44,473 nt of DNA from Alphaproteobacteria bacterium (GTDB taxonomy: Bacteria; Pseudomonadota; Alphaproteobacteria; SHVZ01): positions 1 through 44,473 of the forward strand of contig VGEH01000019.1 of NCBI GenBank assembly GCA_016869375.1, written 5' to 3'. The position numbers were made by a program, and so were the translations under genes. Numbering within the stretch: the first letter of the stretch is position 1; every line of letters begins with the position of its first letter. Positions 25,221-28,161 of the stretch are shown here, piece after piece. The notes beneath the pieces were generated by a model that worked only from the letters and a program-made list of their open reading frames with translations, was not told the origin of the DNA and did not search any database.

Positions 25221-26789
25221 ATGAAGGTCGAGAATGCGTCGCTCGAAGACCTGCTCGAGGGGCTGACCTCGGGCGAGATCGCCGCGACCGAGCTGACCAA
25301 GGCCTATATCGCGCGCATCAAGGCCTATGACCAGGGCGGGCCGAAGATCAATTCGGTGCGCGAGGTGAACCCCGACGCGCTCTCGATCGCCGCGAAGCTC
25401 GACGGCGTGAAGCCCACCAAGAGCAAGCCCCTCGCCGGCCTGCCGATCCTGATCAAGGACAACATCGCCAGCGGCGACCGGCAGCACACGACCGCGGGCT
25501 CGCTCGCGCTCGCCGATGCCTATGCGAAGAAGGACGCGACCGTGACGGCGCGGCTCAGGAAGGCCGGCGCGATCATCCTCGGCAAGGCGAACCTGACCGA
25601 ATTCGCCAACATCCTCGCCGTCGGCATGCCCGCCGGATACAGCTCGCTCGGCGGCCAGGTGAAGAACGCCTTCGCGCCCGATCAGGACGAGAACCGCATT
25701 CCCATCGTCCACCCCGGCGGTTCCAGCGCCGGCTCCGGAGTCGCAGTGGCCATCGGGGCGGCGGCCGCAACCATCGGCACCGAGACCTCGGGTTCGCTGC
25801 TCTCGCCGGCGACCCAGAGCGGCGTGGTCACGGTGAAGCCGACGGTCGGGTTGATCAGCCGCGCCGGCATCCTGCCGATCTCGCATAGCCAGGACACCGC
25901 CGGGCCGATGACGCGCACGGTGCGCGACTCCGCCCTGCTGCTCAACGTGCTCGCCACCGTCGATCCGCTCGACAAGGCGACGGCGCGGCAGAAGCGGCCG
26001 AAGGACTATCTCGATCACCTCGACAAGGACGGGCTCAAGGGAGCGCGCATCGGCGTGCCGAGCGATCCGTCCGATCCCGGCAACGACGTCTACTACAGCC
26101 CGCTCTCGCCGCGCGCGAAGGAGGTCATGAGCCGGACCATCGAGGCCCTGCAGGATCTCGGCGCGACCATCATCCGCGCCAATATTCCGACGGCAGGCTG
26201 GATCGGCGGCGCCGGCACCGAGATCGCGGTTCTCAACCGCAACCACTTCAGCCCCACCTACAACCAGGTCCAGCGCGCGCCGATCGTCTTCGTCTACGAG
26301 CTCAAGAACGGGCTCGAGGCCTATCTGAAGAAATGGGCGAAGGGCACGGCGATGAAGACGATCGACGACATCATCGCCTTCAACCGCGAGCGGCCGGTCG
26401 AAGCGCTGCGCTTCGGCCAGGACCTGTTCCTCGCCGCCGCCGAGACCAGGGGCGATCTCAGTGAGCCGGAGTACAAATCGGCAAGGCGCATGGACTTGAA
26501 GCATGCGAAGACGCTCGGCCTGGACGCTTACATGGATATGCACAAGCTCGACGCCGTGCTGTTCCCGGCCAATGCCGGTGCCGGCATCGCCGCCAAGCCC
26601 GGCTATCCGAGCGTGCAGGTACCCGCGGGCTTCATCGCCGGAATGGGCGGCAAGGACACGCCGGACTATCCGCTCGGCGCCACCTTCGCCGGCCGCGCCT
26701 GGAGCGAGGCCAAGCTGCTCCGCTTCGCCTACGCCTTCGAGCAGGCCACGCATGCGCGCCGCATGCCGCCGGGCGTGCCGGCGCTCTAA
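25221..26789 (+). CDS. Amidase-signature-family amidase
   Basis: The 522-residue protein has the Ser-cisSer-Lys triad of the amidase signature family: K79 in LIKDNI, cis-Ser S168 in GGSSAGSG and nucleophile S192 in GTETSGS. It hydrolyses amides to acid plus ammonia or amine in the cytoplasm. There is no signal peptide and no neighbouring gatB/gatC, so a tRNA-amidotransferase role is unlikely. An aGGGGG ribosome-binding site precedes the ATG. It lies nine bases after the threonine-aldolase-like gene, and its stop overlaps the convergent TetR stop (CTAA). Confidence 0.9.
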   Translation: MKVENASLEDLLEGLTSGEIAATELTKAYIARIKAYDQGGPKINSVREVNPDALSIAAKLDGVKPTKSKPLAGLPILIKDNIASGDRQHTTAGSLALADAYAKKDATVTARLRKAGAIILGKANLTEFANILAVGMPAGYSSLGGQVKNAFAPDQDENRIPIVHPGGSSAGSGVAVAIGAAAATIGTETSGSLLSPATQSGVVTVKPTVGLISRAGILPISHSQDTAGPMTRTVRDSALLLNVLATVDPLDKATARQKRPKDYLDHLDKDGLKGARIGVPSDPSDPGNDVYYSPLSPRAKEVMSRTIEALQDLGATIIRANIPTAGWIGGAGTEIAVLNRNHFSPTYNQVQRAPIVFVYELKNGLEAYLKKWAKGTAMKTIDDIIAFNRERPVEALRFGQDLFLAAAETRGDLSEPEYKSARRMDLKHAKTLGLDAYMDMHKLDAVLFPANAGAGIAAKPGYPSVQVPAGFIAGMGGKDTPDYPLGATFAGRAWSEAKLLRFAYAFEQATHARRMPPGVPAL

Positions 26790-27445
26790 GCCGGCTTGGC
26801 AAGTCCCGCCGCCAGCAGATCGAGCGCCTTCTCGGCCATCGCCTGGGCTTCGTGCTCGGCGACGCCCCAGCGCGGCATGTGGCCGTCGACCTGCATGCGC
26901 GCGAGGCCGTAGACGAGTCCGCGGCCGGTCAGGTGGAGCAGGCGGACGTCATCGGAGCGAAGCCGGTCCTTCGCGATCGCGGCTTTCACAGCCTCCTCCA
27001 TCGCCAGGCGGATCTCCTGGTCCTGGCGGCGCAGCTCAGTCGCGCCCTCGAAGTCGAAGAGCGTGCGGTCCGAGAGCACCTGGAAATGCGTCGGGTTGCG
27101 GAAGGCCCAGCGCAGATAGGCGATGCCGATGGCGCGGAAGCGAGCGAGCGGATCGTCGGTCGGCGCCTTCTCCAGTGCCTCGACGAATTCTCGGTGAAAG
27201 CGCCGCATCGCCTCCTCGGCGATCGCCGTCATAAGGGCGATGCGGCTGGGGAAATGGCGGAAGGGCGCGGCCGAGGAGACGCCGGCACGGCGCGCCACCT
27301 CGCGGACGCTGAGGGCCTCCGCCCCCTCCGCCTCGATCAGGGCGAGACCCGCGGTCACCAGCGCCTGCCGCAGATCGCCATGGTGGTAACCCCGGACAGG
27401 CGAGGCGCGAACCTTGGACGTGCGAGAGCGGCGGGCGGTCGGCAT
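26786..27445 (-). CDS. TetR/AcrR-family transcriptional regulator
   Basis: The 219-residue protein has an N-terminal TetR helix-turn-helix: YHHGDLRQALVTAGLALIEAEG, then LSVREVARRAGVSSAAPFRHFPSRIALM (about residues 20-75). The YHHGDLR start and a WHG-like ligand domain resemble one common TetR subgroup. ATG 27445 begins MPTARRSRTSK; an in-frame upstream start at 27505 would lie over the operator repeats and is less likely. It is divergent from a ferric-reductase-like gene, and the spacer carries two inverted copies of a 22-base element, so it probably represses both itself and that gene. Confidence 0.9.
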   Translation of the reverse strand: MPTARRSRTSKVRASPVRGYHHGDLRQALVTAGLALIEAEGAEALSVREVARRAGVSSAAPFRHFPSRIALMTAIAEEAMRRFHREFVEALEKAPTDDPLARFRAIGIAYLRWAFRNPTHFQVLSDRTLFDFEGATELRRQDQEIRLAMEEAVKAAIAKDRLRSDDVRLLHLTGRGLVYGLARMQVDGHMPRWGVAEHEAQAMAEKALDLLAAGLAKPA

Positions 27446-27474
27446 GATAAGGACGGTATCAGCACGGCTTCGTG

Positions 27475-27537
27475 AATGTAAGCAGCGAAAACATTCCTTG
27501 ACCACCCACGACAGCGGAATGTTATCGTCGCTTACAT
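27475..27537. promoter_or_regulatory. Paired TetR operators overlapping a promoter
   Basis: Bases 27476-27497 and the reverse complement of 27516-27537 agree at 19 of 22 positions (both ATGTAAGC...AACATTCC). Each copy is itself a partial palindrome of AATGT and ACAT(T) ends separated by 11 bases. A TTGACC box (27498-27503) lies between the copies, with its -10 region inside copy 2, so a bound repressor would block the rightward promoter. A GGAGG ribosome-binding site (27545) then precedes ATG 27553. Confidence 0.75.
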
Positions 27538-27552
27538 AAAATCGGAGGATCG

Positions 27553-28161
27553 ATGAGCGAGCGCAGCCTGATCGAAGGATGGCCTCTCCTGGCCACGCTC
27601 ACCGCGGCGCTCGCGGCGATCGTGCTCGGCGACGCCGCGGCGCACGGCTTCGAGGCGGAGTCGACGCGCGCGGCGATCCGGGTGACGGCCCGCACCTCCT
27701 TCGTGCTTTTCTGCCTCGCCTACTCGGCCGCTGCGCTGGTGCGCTTCTGGCCCAACACCTGGACGCGCTGGCAGCGGCGCAACCGCCGGCAGCTCGGCCT
27801 CGCTTTCGCCGTTTCGCATCTGATGCATGCTGCTGCGATCGGCGCCTTCGCGCTCGCCCTGCCGGAAACCTTCCGACAGGAAACCAGCCTCGGCATGTTC
27901 GTCGCCGGCGGCCTCGGCTACCTGTTCATCCTGGCCATGGCGGCGACATCCTTCGACCGCACGGCCGCCGCGATCGGCCCACGCGCCTGGCGCTGGCTGC
28001 ACGGCTTCGGCGCCTTCTACATCTGGGTCGGATTTGTGAACGGCTTCGGCAGCCGCGCCATGGCGAAGCCCGGCTATTGGGTCTTCGTCGCGATCCTGCT
28101 CGCCGTCATGGCGCTTCGCCTCGCGGCGATGCGAAAGAAGAAAGTCGCCGCTCACGCCTAG
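27553..28161 (+). CDS. Ferric-reductase-like transmembrane protein
   Basis: The 202-residue protein has about five or six membrane helices and resembles the ferric reductase-like transmembrane domain (MsrQ/YedZ type). Likely haem-ligand histidines occur in RRQLGLAFAVSHLMHAAA and RWLHGFGAFYIWVGF. Such proteins bind b-type haem and pass electrons across the inner membrane, for example to MsrP. No msrP or FAD/NAD reductase partner is adjacent. Its position behind the TetR operators suggests it is the main regulated target, induced by an unknown ligand or stress. Confidence 0.8.
   Translation: MSERSLIEGWPLLATLTAALAAIVLGDAAAHGFEAESTRAAIRVTARTSFVLFCLAYSAAALVRFWPNTWTRWQRRNRRQLGLAFAVSHLMHAAAIGAFALALPETFRQETSLGMFVAGGLGYLFILAMAATSFDRTAAAIGPRAWRWLHGFGAFYIWVGFVNGFGSRAMAKPGYWVFVAILLAVMALRLAAMRKKKVAAHA

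Follow-up and report, generated by a model that had tools for sequence, protein, structure and literature searches.

The 107-bp spacer (27446-27552) between the divergent genes for a TetR-family regulator and a ferric-reductase-like membrane protein in the window, by which we mean the whole 44,473-nucleotide stretch of alphaproteobacterial DNA analysed here, very probably carries two operators of the adjacent regulator. These predicted binding sites, O1 and O2, would work as a pair that represses both genes until a ligand brings about release. Their coordinates are collected with those of the other features in Table 1. The spacer had been singled out in a sequence-only reading for two near-identical inverted 22-mers, and this is borne out: the arms, separated by a gap of 18 nt, are complementary at 19 of 22 positions (86%). 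In 400 dinucleotide shuffles of the spacer the top 22-mer inverted match never exceeded 15, and among the remaining non-overlapping 107-bp pieces of the contig it was 18, so that a chance origin of the repeat is excluded. The partial AATGT/ACAT palindrome claimed for each copy is present as AATGT/ACATT, and the palindromic consensus common to O1 and O2 is AATGTAAnC-nnn-GnTTACATT. Two details of that reading need correction. The centres of the copies had been placed 40 bp apart because the 22-mers were cut asymmetrically and the distance was taken from the middle of one to that of the other; the dyad centres of the palindromes are 43 bp apart. Further, the TTGACC box, said to lie exactly midway, directly adjoins the left arm, whereas the pair has its midpoint at 27506-27507.

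Table 1. Coordinates, strand and basis of the features discussed in the text
Feature	Coordinates	Strand	Basis or remark
TetR-family regulator, 219 aa, TetR_N + TetR_C_33	26786..27445	-	Pfam; start set by orthologues
O1, predicted operator, 21-bp imperfect palindrome AATGTAAGCAGCGAAAACATT	27475..27495	.	adjoins TetR gene
TACATT, tentative weak -10 of TetR gene, inside O1	27475..27480	-	inferred
Left arm of 22-base inverted repeat	27476..27497	+	19/22 complementary to right arm
TTGACC, probable -35 hexamer of membrane-protein gene	27498..27503	+	same place in orthologues
TGGTCA, candidate -35 of TetR gene, overlaps TTGACC box	27499..27504	-	18 nt from TACATT; weak hexamer
Right arm of 22-base inverted repeat	27516..27537	+	19/22 complementary to left arm
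O2, predicted operator, 21-bp imperfect palindrome AATGTTATCGTCGCTTACATA	27518..27538	.	adjoins membrane-protein gene
TGTTAT, tentative -10 of membrane-protein gene, inside O2	27520..27525	+	16-bp spacer to -35
GGAGG ribosome-binding site of membrane-protein gene	27544..27548	+	read from sequence
Ferric-reductase-like (YedZ/STEAP-type) membrane protein, 202 aa, predicted target	27553..28161	+	weak MsrQ match; model

Both a helix-turn-helix TetR_N domain and a TetR-type C-terminal domain are present in the regulator (Pfam matches PF00440 at 41.1 bits and PF13305 at 38.1 bits, both over the cut-off). Its predicted model (pLDDT 90.5) finds its best fold matches in solved TetR structures, the top one being 3on2, which comes from Rhodococcus and whose function is not known. 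A longer frame with a GTG start at 27505, which would overlap O1, was rejected since the orthologues begin at the position of the ATG at 27445. Where a TetR regulator and a divergent gene are separated by less than 200 bp, the regulator usually represses that gene (PMC3511530). The gap in the window contains a conserved palindrome and is well within this limit, which counts for local repression of the membrane-protein gene.

Related loci were collected with the membrane protein as query, and both palindromes are kept in several alphaproteobacterial families, at target-protein identities of about 47-88%. The nearest relative, a Rhodospirillaceae MAG (L008, the same contig as L006), has the full arrangement at 88% protein identity, and the arrangement is again complete at 47-59% identity in a genus of the Bradyrhizobium group (L009, L011, L027-L054) and in another family (L012, L056, L057, L059, L061). 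The motif was found, with at most two mismatches in 16 positions, in all 39 loci that possess a divergent TetR gene of the window subgroup, a count in which one contig was entered twice. In the 39 homologues of the membrane-protein gene that are not accompanied by such a regulator, the best score was 6 to 9 mismatches (one of these loci, L055, is cut by the contig end and is uninformative), and the two mismatch distributions do not overlap. Many of the loci belong to a single genus, that of the Bradyrhizobium group, and the counts are therefore not independent. At loci with the 43-bp spacing, the information content is 1.70 bits per column in O1 and 1.74 in O2, compared with an average of 0.67 between them, and the latter resides mostly in the sequence TTGAC (about 1.3-1.8 bits per column), most other columns of the gap having 0.1-0.5 bits. 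The alignment of orthologous spacers, which the sequence-only reading had proposed as a check in which non-conservation would count against operators, thus comes out strongly in their favour, with both copies conserved. Its proposal that the repeats are operators of the adjacent TetR appears very probable, in view of this conservation and of the strict co-occurrence with the TetR subgroup. In a genome of the same genus (G005), the recognisable sequence of the membrane protein is limited to its first part (L007:1501-1929), and beside this remnant O1 has decayed to five mismatches. We count this joint decay in favour of paired operators.

The arrangement of the likely promoter elements suggests how such operators might act. 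The most likely role of the TTGACC box is that of a -35 element for the membrane-protein gene. The -10 hexamer placed inside O2, TGTAAT in most orthologues and at a spacing of 17 from the -35 in most loci of the Bradyrhizobium group, must be regarded as tentative, since it has no A at position 2 and was not reported by a strict promoter scan, which returned no promoter. If the hexamers have been assigned correctly, the -35 elements of the two divergent promoters overlap, and there is one -10 beneath each operator. We infer a switch in which protein binding, repression and induction are to be read as predictions, as are the ligand, the precise -10 hexamers and the role of the membrane protein. 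One TetR dimer would bind O1 and a second O2; the first site overlaps the probable promoter of the TetR gene itself, the second the probable promoter of the divergent membrane-protein gene, and RNA polymerase would thus be kept off both start sites. A small-molecule ligand would then bind TetR and release it from the operators, so that both the membrane protein and further repressor would be made. In 34 of 37 loci O2 is the more symmetric of the two palindromes, a difference that would tend to place the target under tighter control than the regulator.

The distance between the operators bears on whether two dimers might interact. Among the 37 loci with two operators, a dyad spacing of 43 bp is seen in 32, of 42 bp in two, of 44 bp in two and of 31 bp in one (L059), and a further locus (L015) has a single copy of the motif. 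Judged by these last two loci, the operator pair is not obligatory. As a refinement of the paired-operator explanation and not an alternative to it, the two dimers, placed on one face of the helix, may bind cooperatively by contact with each other or by way of a short bend, to give a steep switch. The 43-bp spacing corresponds to about 4.1 turns and has been kept in most loci while the sequence between the operators diverged, and the 31-bp outlier likewise lies near a whole number of turns. In addition, the position of the -35 element with respect to O1 differs by one base among lineages, and the distance from O1 to O2 stays at 43. However, the geometry of overlapping -35 elements in divergent promoters would alone keep the operators about 43 bp apart, L015 has only one site, and the classic pair of tet operators, tetO1 and tetO2, shows no indication of cooperativity (PMC3037858). 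We therefore regard cooperative binding as possible but somewhat doubtful.

The specificity of the motif was assessed by scanning genomes, as the sequence-only reading had suggested, and it proved near-unique to this spacer. Of the 22 sites with two or fewer mismatches in ten genomes (about 72 Mb), 18 fall within the spacer between the TetR and membrane-protein genes, and the genome that contains the window (4.98 Mb) has two further matches at a threshold of three mismatches, both of them weak. A genome-wide regulon was rejected, given almost no extra sites in the ten genomes. Because the sites are essentially confined to the spacer, the operators would constitute a local switch, and we conclude that, as predicted from these scans, they are private to this pair of genes. 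Many families of regulators use AT-rich palindromic sites, and the sites might accordingly belong to a global regulator instead of the adjacent TetR. This is very improbable, in that they are almost absent elsewhere in the ten genomes and present only where a TetR of the window subgroup adjoins. Least credible of all is an RNA hairpin, an attenuator or leader structure, which the 22-nt arms, 18 nt apart and able to pair, might form: the presumed loop contains the conserved -35, which means that the left arm would be missing from a transcript of that promoter, each arm is a conserved palindrome by itself, and searches for a terminator-like site and for an Rfam match yielded none, so that hairpin, terminator and Rfam element were all rejected. 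The complementarity of the arms at variable positions (94 of 185, compared with a shuffled mean of 86 and reached in 3.8% of shuffles) is in slight excess, which shared ancestry may explain.

The nature of the presumed target was examined by domain searches, structural modelling and alignment. A Pfam scan of the 202-aa protein gave no match, PF01794 (Ferric_reduct) included; PF01794 was found in 6 of 34 family members, with a best value of 5.3e-8, and the MsrQ model matched 23 of the 34. The model of the window protein (pLDDT 95.2) is all-helical and its best PDB matches are the transmembrane domains of STEAP proteins, with TM-scores of about 0.51-0.58 by query length and weak E-values (0.012 and above); a search by sequence among solved structures produced no useful match. 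The claim of a ferric-reductase-like target is upheld by the Ferric_reduct and MsrQ matches within the family and by the STEAP-like model. The protein is not MsrQ itself, an identity that was rejected because it scores 21.4 bits against the NCBIfam cut-off of 130 and a true MsrQ, with MsrP, is encoded elsewhere in the genome. As expected of the FRD superfamily, it has a multi-helix membrane domain with detectable family sequence similarity; the paired haem-ligand histidines of TM3 and TM5 (at least the outer pair, His-115/His-222 in NOX2) are incomplete. The invariant residues include R78, R79, H89, H92 and H150 (window numbering, initiator Met = 1). In an alignment to MsrQ, H92 corresponds to the outer TM3 histidine and H150 to the inner TM5 histidine, R78 replaces the inner TM3 histidine, and the outer TM5 ligand position (163) is occupied by N, V, A or another residue, so that this histidine is missing. 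H89 is an extra invariant histidine, absent from the MsrQ proteins aligned. Since neither canonical pair is complete, haem binding by the membrane protein is plausible at most.

Two families offer the nearest points of comparison for this protein. With MsrQ/YedZ, the haem-binding subunit of the methionine sulfoxide reductase MsrPQ, it shares distant sequence similarity, an Arg-Arg...Gly motif at the start of TM3 and the aligned TM3 and first TM5 histidines; it differs in having no second TM5 histidine and no msrP alongside. Arginine in place of the first canonical TM3 histidine is a mark of YedZ/STEAP proteins (PMC3591440), and in this respect, as in the fold match, the window protein resembles the STEAP metalloreductase transmembrane domain, whereas its set of histidines is different and it has no NADPH-binding domain. 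Among prokaryotic ferric-reductase-like proteins, only MsrQ has a clearly identified function (PMC11031084). No electron partner was found in the gene neighbourhood of the membrane protein in the sister genome or in Bradyrhizobium, and a search for a plasmid relative found none. In the sister genome (L008, 3600-6313), extra genes are present between the membrane-protein gene and an O-methyltransferase gene, two genes that are closely spaced in the window. The next gene in Bradyrhizobium is convergent and, judged from its translation, short-chain-dehydrogenase-like.

The operators of Tn10 tetR/tetA are more closely spaced than those of the window. The operator sequence in the window is also different, the regulator is of another subgroup (TetR_C_33) and, where Tn10 has an efflux pump, the target is a membrane protein of redox type. 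The two systems nevertheless have in common divergent genes for a repressor and a membrane protein, two palindromic operators that overlap the promoters, autoregulation, which would be expected here, and a better-formed operator on the target side than on the regulator side (PMC3037858, PMC3511530); in the tet system, tetO2 binds more tightly than tetO1 (PMC3037858). A short spacer and the rule of local repression are likewise found for SCO4099, SGR3979 and other Streptomyces TetR regulators that lie within 200 bp of a divergent gene (PMC3511530); the organisms, targets and operators are different. A literature search that covered few subscription journals found no paper that pairs a TetR of the window type with a ferric-reductase-like partner. 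The type of switch is already well known, and it is the function of the target and its pattern of histidines that form the interesting part. The trio of regulator, operators and target is conserved across several alphaproteobacterial families, and in the Bradyrhizobium-group genus the target is encoded in 83 of 118 sampled species. A ligand that releases the repressor would point directly to the substrate of the membrane protein.

More distant homologues of the membrane-protein gene (L019-L022 and L024) face a TetR-like gene of another subgroup; in L020, the one member of this set for which it was shown, the TetR-like protein is of the TetR_C_41 type. A different palindrome, ATACAGnnTGTAT, occurs two or three times in the spacers of these loci, and the spacing of the copies is 47 bp in L020 and L021. 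The combination of a different subgroup and a different palindrome suggests that dedicated TetR control may have arisen more than once. A broader conjecture, which we consider rather unlikely, is that a stand-alone STEAP/YedZ-like family with a non-canonical set of histidines (two in TM3, one in TM5) serves in alphaproteobacteria as an inducible one-gene module for redox reactions or detoxification, placed repeatedly under TetR repressors of unrelated subgroups, each with multiple operators of its own. In L023 and L025, the homologues are divergent to what appears, from its translation, to be an acyl-CoA dehydrogenase gene.
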